A stretch of 37,825 nt of DNA from Streptomyces sp. NRRL F-5123 (lineage in GTDB: Bacteria > Actinomycetota > Actinomycetes > Streptomycetales > Streptomycetaceae), in contig NZ_JOHY01000062.1 of NCBI RefSeq assembly GCF_000721495.1, forward strand, positions 1 to 37,825, written 5' to 3'. The notes beneath the pieces were generated by a model. The model saw only the letters and a list, made by a program, of their open reading frames with translations, was not told the DNA's origin and did no database searches. Positions 1-6,021 of the stretch are shown here, piece after piece (the first letter of the stretch is position 1; each line of letters opens with the position of its first letter). The position numbers and the translations under genes are program-made.

Positions 1-56
1 CACCGAGATCTACACGTAAGGAGTCGTCGGCAGCGTCAGATGTGTATAAGAGACAG
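1..56 (+). other. Illumina Nextera i5 adapter (assembly contamination)
   Basis: Bases 1-15 match the end of the P5 flow-cell primer, 16-23 (GTAAGGAG) are an i5 index, 24-37 (TCGTCGGCAGCGTC) are the Nextera read-1 primer, and 38-56 (AGATGTGTATAAGAGACAG) are the Tn5 mosaic end. This is library sequence, not genome; biological sequence starts at base 57. Any start codon placed in this stretch is artificial. Confidence 0.98.
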
Positions 57-1253
57 CCACAGGGCTACGGCCCCGCGCCCCAACCCGGCCCGGACTCCCG
101 CCGCCGGCCGCCCCCGCAGGGATACGGCCCCCCGCCCGCGCAACCGCCGAGCCCCGCGCAGGGGTTCGGGCCCGCGCCGCAGCCGTACGAGCCCGTGCCG
201 CCGCCGGTGCCGCCCTCGCCGCCGCGGGCACCGGCAACGGCACCGGCTCCGCCGCCCCCGCCCGCAGGGCCGGTCGCGCCGCGGCCCTCCGCGGAGGGGC
301 CGGTCAGTGCCGGGACGCTCGCGGGGCAGCCCGCCGCGGTGCCGTTGCCGCCGCCCGACCCGCGGAGCGGGCCCATCGTGCCGGACGCGGCCGCGGCGCG
401 GCGGCCGGGGGAGCGGACGGACCGGCCGCAGCCCGTGACCGGCTTCTTCGACCTCGGCGCGGAGCCGCCCGCCGCCGAGCCCGTGCGGCTGCCGGACCGG
501 CCGTGCCCGAGCTGCGGCGCCGCCAACCCCGCGGACCGGCACCTGTGCGCGCGGTGCGGCGCGGTGCTCGACCCGCAGGCACCGCCCCCGGCGGCGCCCG
601 CCCCCGTGCCCGAGGCGCCGCTGCCGTGGTGGCGGCGGCTGCTGCGGCGGCCGGAGCGCGCGGTCGCCGCCGGCTACCGCCCGCCCGGCCGCACCCGGCG
701 CAGGCTGCGGCCGCGCGCGGTGTGGCCCGCGGTGGCCGTCGTGCTCGCGCTCGTGGGCTGGCTGGTCCGGGACCAGCTCTCCGACCTGGTCTCGAACATC
801 CGGGACCGCTCGGCGAAGCCGGCCCCGCTGCACCCGAACAGCGCGACCGCGTCCACCGCGGACCCGGCGCACCCGGCGGGCATGGCCTTCGACGGCTACG
901 CGAACCGCTACTGGGCCCCGGCCACCCCGGGCGCGGGCGCCGGACAGTACGTGGAGGCCGGCTTCCCGCAGGCCGTGCACCTCGTGACGGTCATCGTCAC
1001 CCCCGGTTGCTCCGCGGACGACGGCACGTTCCTCACGCAGGCCCGCCCGTCCCGGATCACCCTCACCTTCTACGACACCGCCGGCCGCCCGACCACGCAC
1101 ACGGTCACCCTGCACGACCAGGCGGGCCCGCAGACCTTCGACGTCCACGCGTCCGGCGTGGCCAGGGTCCGGCTCACCACCGACGCCAGCTACGGCGCGA
1201 CCGGCGGCCACCGGCTGGCCATCGCGGAAGTGGAGTTCTTCGGGCGCCAGTGA
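57..1253 (+). CDS. Zinc-ribbon, single-TM protein with C-terminal discoidin-like domain (5'-partial)
   Basis: The N-terminus is missing because the contig begins inside the gene; 398 residues remain and the frame enters cleanly at base 57. Visible parts in order: a proline-rich, probably disordered stretch with PQGYGP-type repeats (about 1-70), more low-complexity sequence, a four-cysteine zinc ribbon (C150, C153, C164, C167), a basic segment, one hydrophobic helix (about 222-240), then a beta-rich domain (about 258-398) resembling the discoidin/F5-8C-like 'NADase-type glycan-binding' family. Basic residues before the helix suggest the N-terminus is cytoplasmic and the C-terminal domain outside. 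From memory, streptomycete eCIS loci carry a bitopic membrane protein linked to the particle (CisA) of similar layout; the LuxR and DUF4157 neighbours fit that, but assignment to CisA is inference. Enzymatic NADase activity is not implied. Confidence 0.75.
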   Translation, partial: PQGYGPAPQPGPDSRRRPPPQGYGPPPAQPPSPAQGFGPAPQPYEPVPPPVPPSPPRAPATAPAPPPPPAGPVAPRPSAEGPVSAGTLAGQPAAVPLPPPDPRSGPIVPDAAAARRPGERTDRPQPVTGFFDLGAEPPAAEPVRLPDRPCPSCGAANPADRHLCARCGAVLDPQAPPPAAPAPVPEAPLPWWRRLLRRPERAVAAGYRPPGRTRRRLRPRAVWPAVAVVLALVGWLVRDQLSDLVSNIRDRSAKPAPLHPNSATASTADPAHPAGMAFDGYANRYWAPATPGAGAGQYVEAGFPQAVHLVTVIVTPGCSADDGTFLTQARPSRITLTFYDTAGRPTTHTVTLHDQAGPQTFDVHASGVARVRLTTDASYGATGGHRLAIAEVEFFGRQ

Positions 1254-1277
1254 TCTTTCCCCAGGGCTTTTCCGCGC

Positions 1278-1322
1278 CTGGTGATCGTTTTTCCGGGTCG
1301 CCCACGGAAAAACGATCACCAG
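1278..1322. terminator. Bidirectional terminator hairpin between convergent genes
   Basis: A perfect 18-bp inverted repeat (1278-1295 and 1305-1322) with a 9-nt loop sits between the zinc-ribbon gene (ends 1253) and the LuxR gene (ends 1334, opposite strand). Runs of T in one arm and A in the other provide a short U-tract in both directions. Confidence 0.85.
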
Positions 1323-1333
1323 CGAACTGACCG

Positions 1334-1969
1334 TCAGATCAGCCCCTGCCGCATCGCATACGCGACCGCCTGCGAACGCGTCCGCAGATTGAGCCGGGTC
1401 ATCACCGAGTGCAGAATGTTCTTGATCGTGCGGTCGGAATATGCGAGCTTCAGGGCGATGTCCGCGGTGCTGCACCCCTCGGCGACGAGCCTCAGCACCT
1501 CGATCTCCCGTTCGTTGAGCCGGCTGAGATTCAGCCCGTGCGCATTCGTCCGGTCGCCCTGGAAACGCCCGACCTGCACCAGCAGCCCGCCCAGCAGGTC
1601 CGCCGGGACGTAGCCCTCGCCGCGGGCGACCGCGCCGATGACCTCCACGAGCTTCGCGGGCGAGGCCTCGGAGCGGCGGATCACTCCGATGAAGCCGCAC
1701 TCCGCCGCCTTGACCAGCTGATTCTCGTCGATGAGAGTCACGACGAGCACCCCGCGCGGGCTCCCCGCCCGGTGGATCCGGCGCAGCACACCGAGCACCT
1801 CGTCGTCCACCGCGTCGACGACCGCCACGACGACGGACGCGGCCTCGGGATCTCGGTCGAGCAGGCGGACCTCCGGTCGCAGCCGCAATTGGCTCGCCAC
1901 TCCCGCCTGAGAGATCGGATCCCAGGCGCGAAGATCGACCGCGATCCGGTCGACACTCAATTCCTTCAC
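1334..1969 (-). CDS. LuxR/NarL-type transcriptional regulator with degenerate receiver-like domain
   Basis: A 211-residue protein. The C-terminal part (about 148-211) is a typical LuxR helix-turn-helix with LNEREIEVLRLVAEGCS and DRTIKNILHSVMTRL. The N-terminal 120 residues have the alternating strand/helix pattern of a response-regulator receiver, but the usual acidic cluster and conserved lysine context are not clear, so it may act without phosphorylation. The GTG start at 1969 is preceded by a strong GGGAGGG ribosome site. It is divergent from the Ig-domain gene at 2158 and convergent with the zinc-ribbon gene, so it plausibly controls this accessory block. LuxR-type regulators beside streptomycete eCIS loci are something I recall; the functional link is inference. 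Confidence 0.85.
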   Translation of the reverse strand: MKELSVDRIAVDLRAWDPISQAGVASQLRLRPEVRLLDRDPEAASVVVAVVDAVDDEVLGVLRRIHRAGSPRGVLVVTLIDENQLVKAAECGFIGVIRRSEASPAKLVEVIGAVARGEGYVPADLLGGLLVQVGRFQGDRTNAHGLNLSRLNEREIEVLRLVAEGCSTADIALKLAYSDRTIKNILHSVMTRLNLRTRSQAVAYAMRQGLI

Positions 1970-2157
1970 ATTCCCTCCCCCTTTCGTGCGCAGGTCTCAA
2001 ACCCCTGACGTGCACTGTCGGCATCTGGAGTTCCCGTTCTGTCATCCTGATATTCCCTGAAGCGACGTACGATGACTCAAAGCGAACCCATTCCTGCCCG
2101 AAAGACTTCCTGCACGGCCACTCCGGAAGGAAAACTTCCGCTCCTACGGTGACGCGT

Positions 2158-3534
2158 ATGAGTATTTCGGCGAGCTTCGACGAGGGTGCCGTCGCCGTGG
2201 AGCCCGGCGGCGATGTGACGCTGCTGGTCCAGGTGGCCAATTCCGGTACCACCGTGGAGGAGCTGCGCCTCGAACCCGTCGGCCCCTGTGCCGAGTGGAC
2301 CGCGGTGGAGCCCGAGCGGCTGTCGCTCTACCCGGGCGCCTCGGGCAGCGCGCAGGTGCACGTACGCCCGCCGCGGGCGCCCGGCACCGCCCCGGGCACC
2401 ACGACGCTGGGCCTGCGGCTGGTGCCGACGAGCGACGCGAACCTGCCGGTCGTGGCCGAACGGCCGCTGGACGTACTGCCGTTCACCGACGTCTCCGCCG
2501 AACTGGTGCCGCGCGCCTCGCAGAGCGCGTGGCGCGGCCGGCACGAGGCCGCGGTCGACAACCGCGGCAACACGCCGCTGACCGTCACGCTGGCCGCCCA
2601 GGGCATGGGCGAGCGCGTGAAGTTCGCGCTGGAGCCCGCCGACCTCACCATTCCCTGCGGCGAGACGAAGCTGTCGCGGCTCAACGCCCGCCCGGTGCGC
2701 CGGATCTGGCGCGGGGCGCCCGCGACGCACGCCTTCCAGGTCCTCGTCACGCCCGAGCCCTCCCCGGACGGCGGCGCCCGCCCGCCCGCCGTCCTCGACG
2801 GCACGTACGAGCAGCAGGCGATCCTGCCGCGCTGGCTGCCGCGTGCGATCATCACCGCGGTCATCCTCGCGGGCGTCCTGGTCGGCCTCTGGTACGGGCT
2901 GCTGCGCCCGACCGTACGGTCCGCGGCCCGCGACGCCATCACGCCCGAGTCCATCGCCAGCGCCGCGTCCGCCACGCCGGGGACGACCGCCGGCACCACG
3001 GCCGGCACCACGGCCGGCTCGACCGCGGGCAGCACGGCGGGCACGGGCAGCACCGCCGGCACCGGTACCACCGCCCCGGCGGCGACCGCGGGCGGCACCT
3101 CCGCCGGCACCGGCAGCACGGCGGGCAGCGCGGGCGGCGCCAACCCGGGCAGCGGCGCGAACACCGCGGCCGGGACGCCGACGCGTACCAACATCAGCGT
3201 CAAGGACGCGGCCGGCGGAAGCACGAAGGCCGCCTCCTACACCGTCGCGAGCGGCAGGAGCTTCAACGTCACGGACATCGTGGTGCAGAACCCGCAGGGC
3301 GACGCGGGCACCCTCGTGGTCGCCACCGCCGACGGGCAGCTCCTCACCCTGGCGCTTGAGGACTTCCGGGCCTCCGACTACCACTTCGTCACGCCGATCG
3401 TCGTCCCGGCGGGCGGCAGGATCACCCTGACCGTCGGCTGCCGCGAGGTCGGCCGCCCGATCAAGGCGCCCGTCCCCTCGCAGTGCTCGGAGTCCGTGCT
3501 GCTCGGCGGCACCCTCCAGAGCACCACGGGCTGA
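2158..3534 (+). CDS. Bitopic membrane protein with N-terminal Ig-like domains and Ala/Gly/Thr linker
   Basis: 458 residues from the ATG at 2158; an in-frame GTG at 2149 is an alternative start. Residues 1-220 look like two immunoglobulin-like or NEW3-type beta domains (PGG/NSGTTVEE and DNRGNTPL turns). A hydrophobic helix lies at about 228-250. A linker of TAGT/TAGS-type repeats (about 275-340) leads to a C-terminal beta-rich domain of about 115 residues. There is no signal peptide, so the N-terminal domains are probably cytoplasmic and the tail external. Homologues are often labelled 'hydrolytic protein', but I see no catalytic motif supporting that name. The DUF4157 gene follows after 55 bp on the same strand, so the two are probably co-transcribed. 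I recall related proteins in streptomycete eCIS loci; a function is not known to me. Confidence 0.75.
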   Translation: MSISASFDEGAVAVEPGGDVTLLVQVANSGTTVEELRLEPVGPCAEWTAVEPERLSLYPGASGSAQVHVRPPRAPGTAPGTTTLGLRLVPTSDANLPVVAERPLDVLPFTDVSAELVPRASQSAWRGRHEAAVDNRGNTPLTVTLAAQGMGERVKFALEPADLTIPCGETKLSRLNARPVRRIWRGAPATHAFQVLVTPEPSPDGGARPPAVLDGTYEQQAILPRWLPRAIITAVILAGVLVGLWYGLLRPTVRSAARDAITPESIASAASATPGTTAGTTAGTTAGSTAGSTAGTGSTAGTGTTAPAATAGGTSAGTGSTAGSAGGANPGSGANTAAGTPTRTNISVKDAAGGSTKAASYTVASGRSFNVTDIVVQNPQGDAGTLVVATADGQLLTLALEDFRASDYHFVTPIVVPAGGRITLTVGCREVGRPIKAPVPSQCSESVLLGGTLQSTTG

Positions 3535-3589
3535 CCGGTCGCGCTGGACCCGCACCACCCCGTACGGCACCCTCCGGGAGGAGCCCGGC

Positions 3590-4450
3590 ATGCGAGCGCA
3601 CGACCACAGCGACCACGACCACGAGCACGAAGGCGCCCACCGGCAGGGCGCGGACGCCGACGCGCAGCAGCAGGCACTGCCCCATCTGCTCAGGGCGGCG
3701 GCCGCGGGCCGCACCGACGTGGTCGGCCCCGCGGGGTTCGGGGTGCTCCAGCGGCTCGTCGGCAACAGCGGGGTGGGCGCGGTGCTCCAGCGCGAGGTGC
3801 AGCACGGGCACGAGCACGACCACGAGCGCGAGGACGAGCACGAGGGCCGCGCGGAGGCACCCGGGGCCGCGCCCCGGTCGTCCGTGCACGACGTCGTCGG
3901 CGGCGGGGGCGGCGAGCCGCTGGACGCCGGGACGCGCACGGACATGGAGTCCCGGCTCGGCGCGGACTTCGGCGACGTCCGCGTGCACACCGACTCCGGC
4001 GCGCACGCCTCGGCGGCCGAGGTCGGCGCCCGCGCCTACACGGTCGGCAACGACATCGTCTTCCAGCGCGACGCCTACGACACCGCGTCCGACACCGGCC
4101 GCACCACGCTCGCCCACGAACTGACGCACGTCATGCAGCAGCGGCAGGGCCCGGTCGACGGCACGGAGACCGCGGGCGGCATCCGGGTGAGCGACCCCTC
4201 CGACCGCTTCGAGCGGGAGGCCTCGGCCAACGCCGAACGCGTCATGGCCGCCCCCTCCCCCGCGGCCGAACCCGCCGCCGAACCCACCGCCGCCGAGTCC
4301 GGACCCGCCGCCGAACCCGCATCCGCCGCGGCACCGGCCGTACCCGCGGGCGCGGCCGTCCAGCGCGAGGAGGACGACACGGCCTCCTCCGTCCAGCGGG
4401 AGCCGGAGAAGAAGGAGGACGAAGAGGAAGAGGCGCCGCCCGAAAGCTGA
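3590..4450 (+). CDS. DUF4157 (eCIS core domain) protein with HELTH motif
   Basis: 286 residues. The start is well defined by GGGAGGAG six bases before ATG. Layout: a His/Asp/Glu-rich head (MRAHDHSDHDHEHEG), then LQRLVGNSGVG and VLQREV, the short motif that commonly precedes this domain, then DUF4157 (about 100-190) with DFGDVRVHTDS, AYTVGNDIVF and the zinc-protease signature HELTH (H176, E177, H180) followed by VMQQRQG. The tail after about 215 is Ala/Pro-rich, then highly acidic, with repeated VQRE motifs. DUF4157 is known as a domain enriched in cargo and accessory proteins of extracellular contractile injection systems. No separate toxin domain follows it, so this may be a stand-alone peptidase or adaptor. 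The head could bind divalent metal, by inference. Confidence 0.85.
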   Translation: MRAHDHSDHDHEHEGAHRQGADADAQQQALPHLLRAAAAGRTDVVGPAGFGVLQRLVGNSGVGAVLQREVQHGHEHDHEREDEHEGRAEAPGAAPRSSVHDVVGGGGGEPLDAGTRTDMESRLGADFGDVRVHTDSGAHASAAEVGARAYTVGNDIVFQRDAYDTASDTGRTTLAHELTHVMQQRQGPVDGTETAGGIRVSDPSDRFEREASANAERVMAAPSPAAEPAAEPTAAESGPAAEPASAAAPAVPAGAAVQREEDDTASSVQREPEKKEDEEEEAPPES

Positions 4451-4478
4451 CGCCTCTCCCTCCGCCGTCCGCGCCCCT

Positions 4479-4506
4479 CCCCCGAGGGGGCCGCCCCTGC
4501 CGGGGC
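4479..4506. terminator. Possible terminator hairpins in convergent gap
   Basis: The 56-bp gap between the DUF4157 stop and the rtcB stop holds two small GC-rich inverted repeats: CCCC/GGGG around 4480-4490, and GCCCC-TGCC-GGGGC at 4493-4506 abutting the rtcB stop. Both stems are short, so the call is tentative. Confidence 0.35.
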
Positions 4507-5700
4507 TCAGCCCTTGACGCAGACGACCTGCTTGAGCTTGGCCACCACCTCGACCAGGTCCCGCTGCTGGTCGATGACCTTCTCGATCGGCTTGTACGCA
4601 CCGGGGATCTCGTCGACGACCCCGGCGTCCTTGCGGCACTCCACCCCGCGCGTCTGCTCCTCCAGATCCCGCGTGGAGAAGCGCTTCTTCGCCGCGCTCC
4701 GGCTCATCCGCCGCCCGGCGCCGTGCGAGGCCGAGTTGAAGGCGTCGGTGTTGCCGAGGCCGCGCACGATGTACGACCCCGTGCCCATGGAGCCGGGGAT
4801 GATGCCGTACTCGCCGCCGCCCGCGCGGATCGCGCCCTTGCGGGTGACGAGCAGGTCGACACCGTCGTACCGCTCCTCGGCCACGTAGTTGTGGTGGCAG
4901 GAGATCACCTGGTCGAAGGTGACCCGCGCCTTCTTGAACTCCTTGCGCACGACGTCCTGCAGCAGGCCCATCATCAGCGCGCGGTTGCGCTTGGCGTACT
5001 CCTGCGCCCAGAACAGGTCGTTGCGGTACGCCGCCATCTGCGGGGTGTCCGCGACGAAGACGGCGAGGTCGCGGTCGACCAGGCCCTTGTTGTGCGGCAG
5101 GCCCTGGGCCACGCCGATGTGGTGCTCGGCCAGCTCCTTGCCGATGTTGCGCGACCCGGAGTGCAGCATCAGCCACACCTCGCCGGACTCGTCCAGGCAC
5201 ACCTCGATGAAGTGGTTGCCGCTGCCCAGCGTGCCGATCTGCTGCGCCGCGCGCTCGGCCCGCCAGTGCACCGACTCGGTGAGCCCGTCGAAGCGCGCCC
5301 AGAAGTCGTCCCAGCCGGACGTCGGCATGCCGTGCACGTCACCGGGGCTGACCGGGTCGCTGTGCAGGCCGCGGCCGACCGGGATGGTCTGCTCGATCCG
5401 CGTCCGCAGCCGCGACAGGTCGCCGGGCAGGTCGTTCGCCGTCAGCGACGTCCGCACCGCGCTCATGCCGCAGCCGATGTCGACGCCGACCGCCGCCGGG
5501 CAGACCGCGCCCTGCATCGCGATGACGGAGCCGACCGTGGCGCCCTTGCCGTAGTGGACGTCGGGCATCACTGCGAGGCCCTTGATCCACGGCAGCGACG
5601 AGACGTTGCGCAGCTGCTGCATCGCGCCGCTCTCGACCGCGGCCGGGTCGGTCCACATGCGGATCGGGACCCGGACCCCGGGTACTTCGGTGTACGACAT
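4507..5700 (-). CDS. rtcB: RtcB-type RNA ligase
   Basis: 397 residues from the ATG at 5700, preceded by CGGGGGGCAGCC; longer in-frame starts reach 5799 but add non-conserved sequence. RtcB joins RNA 2',3'-cyclic phosphate (or 3'-phosphate) ends to 5'-OH ends using GTP and Mn2+, in RNA repair or tRNA splicing. The family's metal and guanylylation motifs are all readable: DVHYGKGATVG, VGVDIGCGM (Asp/Cys ligands), GTLGSGNHFIEV, MLHSGSRNIG, CHHNYVAEE and SHGAGRRMSR (the region of the guanylylated His). No archease or rtcA cyclase gene is adjacent in the window. It is transcribed toward the eCIS-like block and divergent from the lipoprotein gene at 6022. The biological substrate in actinobacteria is not evident from context. 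Confidence 0.93.
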   Translation of the reverse strand: MSYTEVPGVRVPIRMWTDPAAVESGAMQQLRNVSSLPWIKGLAVMPDVHYGKGATVGSVIAMQGAVCPAAVGVDIGCGMSAVRTSLTANDLPGDLSRLRTRIEQTIPVGRGLHSDPVSPGDVHGMPTSGWDDFWARFDGLTESVHWRAERAAQQIGTLGSGNHFIEVCLDESGEVWLMLHSGSRNIGKELAEHHIGVAQGLPHNKGLVDRDLAVFVADTPQMAAYRNDLFWAQEYAKRNRALMMGLLQDVVRKEFKKARVTFDQVISCHHNYVAEERYDGVDLLVTRKGAIRAGGGEYGIIPGSMGTGSYIVRGLGNTDAFNSASHGAGRRMSRSAAKKRFSTRDLEEQTRGVECRKDAGVVDEIPGAYKPIEKVIDQQRDLVEVVAKLKQVVCVKG

Positions 5701-6021
5701 GGCTGCCCCCCGGGACATAGACCGACTGGAAGGAACGAGCGGGACGAAGGCACGACCGTGCGTGGCCGGGCCGGACGCCTGGAACATTCCAGACATCACG
5801 GATCAATGGCGCACAACACGTCAGTTTCACACCCATACGGCATGAAACGTCTGATTCGTCGAATAGACCAACGGGTCACCCGATAAACCCACCCCCACGG
5901 GCGCTTTCCGCGCCGCGTGCGGTAGACATTGTGTCCAGGGTTCGCTCAAGCGCGCCAAGGAATTACCGCGCCGGGACCGTTACGGCACGCAGCTGCGACA
6001 CACGACATCGAGAGGCGGCAC
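5701..6021. promoter_or_regulatory. Divergent intergenic region with two inverted repeats
   Basis: 321 bp between rtcB (leftward) and a lipoprotein gene (rightward), with no convincing gene. Two candidate operators are visible: CTGGAACATTCCAG at 5779-5792, a 6+6 inverted repeat about 80 bp upstream of rtcB, and GTTTCA (5824-5829) paired with TGAAAC (5843-5848). Base composition around 5800-5960 is less GC-rich than the flanking genes, as expected for promoters. The binding proteins are unknown. Confidence 0.5.

Follow-up and report, generated by a model that had tools for sequence, protein, structure and literature searches.

Genes at a contig edge of Streptomyces sp. NRRL F-5123 very probably form the accessory end of a type IId contractile injection system, with a conserved element before the putative effector gene

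Introduction

Contig NZ_JOHY01000062.1 of Streptomyces sp. NRRL F-5123 (37,825 bases; C62), which in its full length is the window analysed here, carries at positions 57-4450 four neighbouring genes. We regard them, with a probability of about 0.88, as belonging to a complete contractile injection system (CIS) of the type IId known from Streptomyces, of which they would form the accessory end; its structural part lies on contig C100 and its AAA+ ATPase gene on contig C24 of the same draft genome (8.80 Mb, 250 contigs; close to Actinacidiphila). By architecture and place, the window genes would encode a CisA protein, a SlpR-type LuxR regulator, a Sco4256-type effector and a small DUF4157 protein. 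An earlier, sequence-only reading had described them as genes for a zinc-ribbon/transmembrane (TM)/discoidin-like protein, a LuxR regulator, a bitopic protein with immunoglobulin (Ig) domains and a DUF4157 protein, and domain scans and a structural model found all four at the places it had noted. In Streptomyces, such machines work within the cell that makes them, where they bring about regulated cell death (PMC12237407; PMC10066040). The main features are as follows.

57..1253, forward strand: cisA-like gene, 3' part, with no start in the window; Pro-rich segment, zinc ribbon, TM helix, discoidin/CBM32-like domain
1334..1969, reverse strand: luxR, LuxR/GerE-type regulator (PF00196, E 4e-12, above cut-off); SlpR/SCO4263-like by family and place
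2094..2111, reverse strand: conserved 18-bp element between luxR and the effector gene, in their divergent promoter region
2158..3534, forward strand: Sco4256-type effector gene, by predicted structure, homologues and published effector family
3590..4450, forward strand: gene for a small DUF4157/eCIS_core protein of 286 aa (PF13699, E 7e-32, above cut-off)

The structural genes and the order of the locus

Neither the sheath (PF04984) nor the baseplate J family (PF04865) has a match in the window, the scan of which covered some, but not all, of the other structural families. The sequence-only reading had likewise placed these genes outside the window, and a search of the genome itself found sheath matches in two places (C100 and C2) and baseplate J matches on C100 and C44; the sheath, tube, baseplate and AAA+ ATPase genes that it had proposed to look for are all present in this genome, on C100 and C24. 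On C100 (11.5 kb), genes for sheath, tube, tube, CIS_tube, spike, PAAR, gp25, baseplate J and Tail_P2_I follow one another in this order, all above the Pfam cut-off, while the protein encoded at 3153-4880, between the two tubes, matches no Pfam family. Compared with solved chains of the S. coelicolor CIS, the C100 sheath (E 4e-205), baseplate J (E 5e-237) and Tail_P2_I (E 1e-39) proteins are clear matches; 9GTP, named as S. coelicolor, is among the matched structures.

The start of the cisA-like gene comes after Tail_P2_I on C100, the 3' end of which encodes the N-terminus of a zinc-ribbon, Pro-rich protein; the coding sequence at the left end of the window starts within the Pro-rich part of a protein of this kind, the homologue of which from A. 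cocklensis (G012) contains both ends. The missing N-terminus of the window gene is thus probably the one encoded on C100. The AAA+ ATPase gene lies at C24:1539-4277 (PF00004, above cut-off), has homologues in place in A. cocklensis and A. acididurans (G022), and adjoins the C-terminus of a large effector within which C24 opens; its product is 86% identical to the AAA+ protein beside the G012 effector. Since C100 and C62 share the halves of cisA, and an effector C-terminus opens C24 beside the AAA+ ATPase gene, the locus most likely runs from C24 in reverse complement (AAA+ ATPase, effector C-terminus) across a gap to C100 and across a second gap to C62. We infer the continuity of the window with the structural genes of its own genome, both junctions being assembly gaps.

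A search of the other contigs of this genome for the body of the large effector did not find it. Exact 99-nt overlaps pair contig ends at these places (C100:1-99 with C60:1-99; C24:1-99 with C118:6210-6308), as if two large effector genes had a near-identical middle that was collapsed by the assembly; such a middle was found on no contig. The C-terminal part of the second large effector (C118:5179-6306, L069) matches AID/APOBEC-like deaminase families below their cut-offs (best E 9e-4).

Gene order and linkage in relatives

A. cocklensis and A. acididurans belong to the same genus as the window genome, and each carries the full gene order on one uninterrupted contig: AAA+ and the structural genes, followed by CisA, LuxR on the reverse strand, and the Ig/TM and DUF4157 proteins on the forward strand. 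Identities to A. cocklensis are 86% for AAA+, 97% for the sheath, 98 and 100% for the tubes, 96% for the spike, 97% for gp25, 96% for baseplate J, 92% for Tail_P2_I, 86% for CisA (aligned part), 97% for LuxR, 80% for the Ig protein and 76% for the DUF4157 protein; pieces of rtcB come next. A. acididurans repeats this order at lower identity, and rtcB is absent from the stretch of it that was examined. The claim that the contig edge cuts off the accessory end of a CIS locus is supported by this intact order and by the apparent cisA N-terminus on C100.

Linkage was surveyed in 41 genomes (the source genome and 40 relatives); the Ig search scored at most 40 candidates per genome, so that misses are possible. 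Among the matches listed, the Ig protein occurs in at least 22 and the sheath in 24 of the 41 genomes, with both in at least 21 and neither in 16; the Ig protein stands without a sheath in one genome (G003, a weak match), and the sheath without an Ig match in three (G018, G025, G039). A sheath was thereby found in 21 of 22 Ig-positive and 3 of 19 Ig-negative genomes (Fisher p 1.4e-7, a value that ignores kinship), and in all 21 genomes with both, one Ig match lies on the same contig as the sheath and no more than 20 kb from it, as judged by comparing the places by eye. That the four window genes are chance neighbours with no CIS connection, as the missing sheath and baseplate J matches in the window might be taken to mean, is hardly credible given the order conserved in two relatives and the strong linkage between Ig and sheath genes; the uninterrupted A. 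cocklensis contig contradicts this explanation, and we reject it.

In A. cocklensis, a frame of about 1,500 aa (L043:317-4900, reverse strand) that resembles an effector and contains long hydrophobic stretches lies on the opposite strand between the AAA+ and sheath genes. It has neither a Pfam family above the cut-off nor a DUF4157 domain and is probably a tape-measure-like cargo; its likeness to Tme, the tape-measure-like effector of S. davawensis, was judged by eye.

The source genome also holds a second type IId CIS locus, on C2 (about 413370-428586; L008, L009) and C44 (about 69800-79020; L070, L071), with its own LuxR, Ig protein, PD40 protein, AAA+, sheath, tube, baseplate and CisA-like genes. 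C2 ends in adapter, and the locus probably continues from there on C44.

A LuxR-effector-DUF4157 gene group

A scan of named genomes yielded 67 loci, some of them cut by contig ends. LuxR is the divergent neighbour of the effector gene in 60 of them, and a DUF4157 gene follows the effector within 2.5 kb in 56, convergently in 54 and on the same strand in two (L080 and L081, both from Actinacidiphila). Within the stretch examined, 51 of the 67 loci have an AAA+ match, six a structural gene and four CisA. Wherever the genome behind such a locus was tested for a sheath, one was present (32 of 32), and its coordinates fall within 30 kb of the Ig gene in 30 of these genomes (contigs matched by coordinates only), the exceptions being L105 and L133, the latter of which has baseplate genes and CisA inside the locus itself. 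In four further genomes (G014, G006, G008, G021) and in the second CIS locus of the source genome, the LuxR/Ig pair stands on the far side of the sheath.

The LuxR and DUF4157 genes flank the effector gene as a cassette, which in the present species, A. cocklensis and A. acididurans is found on the other side of the structural operon, an arrangement that is possibly new. We suggest tentatively, and at less than even odds, that LuxR, the Sco4256-type effector and the small DUF4157 protein constitute a portable cassette with its own conserved operator at the effector promoter. This cassette would change its place with respect to the structural operon as one block, arming would thereby be switched apart from building, and the identity of the effector would change by swapping of its outside domain. 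The literature surveyed, most of it seen only in part, held no description of such a three-gene cassette or of the element discussed below, which is weak evidence of absence, and a literature search found no paper that joins 'contractile injection system' with 'Actinacidiphila'.

Of 61 intergenic regions between luxR and the effector gene, 58 contain the 18-bp element of 2094..2111, always 44-47 bp before the effector start. It probably serves the effector gene as an operator or promoter element, and its recurrence at this spacing is possibly new. In the whole genome, a 17-base pattern derived from the element occurs exactly once, in the window, and twice with 2 mismatches; the reversed control gave 10 matches. 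Across the 1.2 Mb of the 67 loci, 8 matches above 11 bits lie away from luxR, one of them between the sheath and DUF4157 genes of an Amycolatopsis locus (L136), and A. acididurans has one further match of 12.3 bits; scores just above 11 bits can therefore be due to chance. An operator common to effector and sheath is not supported, as the element has no match above 8 bits on C100. The same holds for the scanned slices of C24 (1-20000), C2 (404000-428586) and C44 (55000-79850).

SCO4263 of S. coelicolor is a LuxR regulator, and transcription of the sheath operon depends on SCO4263/SlpR (PMC2000904; PMC8505568). SCO4263 carries one TTA codon, the feature that puts it under bldA control, whereas the window luxR has none. 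In the luxR gene of the second CIS locus (L008:11010-11711, on C2), codon 22 of the longest open reading frame is a TTA, the start codon being uncertain, and the window-type luxR of A. acididurans contains an internal TTA. From these sequences, bldA control may differ between CIS loci.

The cisA-like gene

Three segments can be discerned in the encoded protein behind its Pro-rich part.

501-569, forward strand: zinc ribbon (Pfam matches below cut-off)
about 711-764, forward strand: TM helix
813-1250, forward strand: discoidin/CBM32-like domain (NCBIfam NF047619, NADase_discoid, E 6e-25, above cut-off)

A match to PF25302 remains below the Pfam cut-off. CisA (SCO4242) is a bitopic membrane protein that is required for firing and recruits particles to the membrane in S. 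coelicolor (PMC12237407), with a Cys-rich region ahead of its TM segment and a conserved C-terminus of the carbohydrate-degrading type (PMC10020575). The window protein shares with it the Zn/Cys-rich and Pro-rich region, the single TM helix, the conserved sugar-binding-like C-terminal domain and the position of the gene after the baseplate genes; this likeness is one of family, architecture and place.

The Ig/TM effector gene

No Pfam or NCBIfam family matches the product of this gene above its cut-off. The predicted structure divides it into the following parts.

2158-2823, forward strand: two Ig-like N-terminal domains (model, pLDDT mostly >90)
2833-2937, forward strand (residues 226-260): TM helix (model)
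3175-3522, forward strand: C-terminal beta domain (model)

Residues 273-337 are a disordered linker in the model, and the structural matches listed chiefly cover residues 1-222. C-terminal domains are swapped among 22 homologues (at E up to 0.01): RicinB_lectin_2 occurs in eight, CDtoxinA in four, ChW in three and PG_binding_1, weakly (E 7.5e-4), in one.

This is the layout of Sco4256-Sco4258, which have a common N-terminus, one TM segment and C-terminal domains that are ricin-like in two of the three. Tube filling and stress-induced death require these proteins, which are also toxic in E. coli (PMC10066040). Homologues of SCO4256 were reported from 90% of 105 type IId loci (PMC10020575), and Sco4256-like effectors from 47 of 94 CIS-positive strains (PMC10066040). 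Judged by family, architecture and place, the window protein shares the conserved N-terminus with a chaperone-like Ig fold, the single TM, the variable C-terminus and the tie to CIS loci; it differs in that it is encoded beside cisA and that its C-terminal domain, which has no ricin-lectin match, is not of the ricin type.

The Ig/TM protein could instead be a resident bitopic membrane protein, with its N-terminus inside and a wall- or glycan-binding domain outside, that serves as a second docking or sensing protein beside CisA, the layout of which it shares. The sugar and wall binders among the swapped C-termini (RicinB_lectin_2, ChW, PG_binding_1) would suit such a role, and a table in the glycoproteome section of PMC6593405 lists SCO4256 as 'Membrane'. 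We nevertheless consider it rather doubtful, since purified particles contain Sco4256 (PMC10020575), the Sco4256-4258 triple mutant has about 85% empty tubes and copies a CIS mutant, the proteins are toxic in E. coli (PMC10066040), and four of the 22 homologues carry a CDtoxinA match.

The small DUF4157 protein

The 286-aa protein has a His/Asp/Glu-rich N-terminus, a core domain with an HExxH motif (HELTH in the translation) at 3917-4150 and an acidic C-terminal tail; a Pfam scan detected in it neither a toxin domain nor any second domain. The sequence-only identities of the Ig and DUF4157 proteins were borne out and can now be sharpened: the former belongs with the published Sco4256-type effectors, and the latter lacks any toxin domain that Pfam recognises. 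In S. lividans, the small DUF4157 protein Sle2 (SLIV_17110) binds the tube initiator and the cargo Sle1 (PMC13277306). It resembles the window protein in size, in its DUF4157 core and in having no recognised toxin domain, a likeness of family, architecture and place; the window gene differs in adjoining a Sco4256-type effector gene, with the large cargo gene at the sheath end.

The HExxH motif is kept in all 56 DUF4157 neighbours of homologous effectors, and DUF4157 has been called in the literature a core domain of candidate CIS effectors. Both facts would fit a protein that is itself the injected effector, a zinc peptidase, and not an adaptor. Such a role is unlikely, in our view, for a protein of 286 aa with one Pfam domain and low-complexity ends, the other DUF4157 proteins of this genome being longer among the frames scanned (C72, 971 aa; C21, 659 aa; C50, 399 aa) and the small S. 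lividans protein having the binding partners just named. These three longer proteins are encoded away from CIS structural genes (L010:6454-9369, L011:7105-9084 and L012:8703-9902, respectively) and are candidates for orphan cargo; the one on C50 has an Endonuclea_NS_2 domain above the cut-off.

Contig ends and neighbouring features

Three further features lie at or next to the locus.

1..56, no strand: adapter-like sequence, an assembly artefact at the contig edge and not biology
1278..1322, no strand: perfect 18-nt inverted repeat with a 9-nt loop between the convergent cisA-like and luxR genes
4507..5799, reverse strand: RtcB ligase gene (PF01139, E 2.5e-125), which bounds the locus and lies outside it

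Positions 1-56, which resemble the Illumina Nextera adapter, interrupt the cisA-like gene at 57; contigs C118 and C2 end in an identical piece of this segment, 34-36 nt long, which marks it as an artefact. The inverted repeat is a probable bidirectional terminator. At the right contig end, 37731-37825 is a 5S rRNA gene that lacks its 5' end (Rfam RF00001), and since this gene is cut at the edge, C62 probably stops there at an rRNA operon.

Discussion

The CIS of S. coelicolor (CISSc, SCO4242-SCO4263, type IId) agrees with the locus described here in its sheath, baseplate J and Tail_P2_I sequences, in a CisA-type gene right after the baseplate genes, in a LuxR regulator and in an Ig/TM effector with a variable C-terminus; it differs in that luxR, the effector gene and the DUF4157 gene come after cisA here. 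Four points weigh against our assignment. The C24-C100 and C100-C62 joins are absent from the assembly; LuxR, effector and DUF4157 genes stand beside cisA, unlike the position on the AAA+ side in most of the 67 loci; the absence of the element from C100 means that control of the structural genes by the window LuxR is not demonstrated by it; and the links to SCO4242, SCO4256, SCO4263 and Sle2 are drawn from family, architecture and place.

By analogy with what has been published for S. coelicolor and S. lividans, the cluster would be turned on by the LuxR protein, and CIS particles would assemble in the cytoplasm. CisA would span the membrane, its zinc-ribbon/Pro-rich end facing the cytoplasm and its sugar-binding-like domain the outside, and would recruit the particles and permit firing. 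The Ig/TM protein would be a cargo effector, and the small DUF4157 protein, itself no toxin, an adaptor between the cargo and the spike/tube-initiator end. The regulator or RNA polymerase may act on the effector promoter at 2094-2111.

The type of machine is already known; the grouping of its accessory genes and the conserved DNA signal are less well described. With relatives as a guide, an accessory end severed by a contig edge can be identified and placed. Since these machines bring about regulated death of the cell in which they act, their switching, arming and docking are of current interest. A second, rearranged layout shows which accessory genes travel together, and with the short conserved element the regulation of the effector can be tested directly. 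To a specialist, the new points of interest would be how the cassette is regulated and how portable it is.

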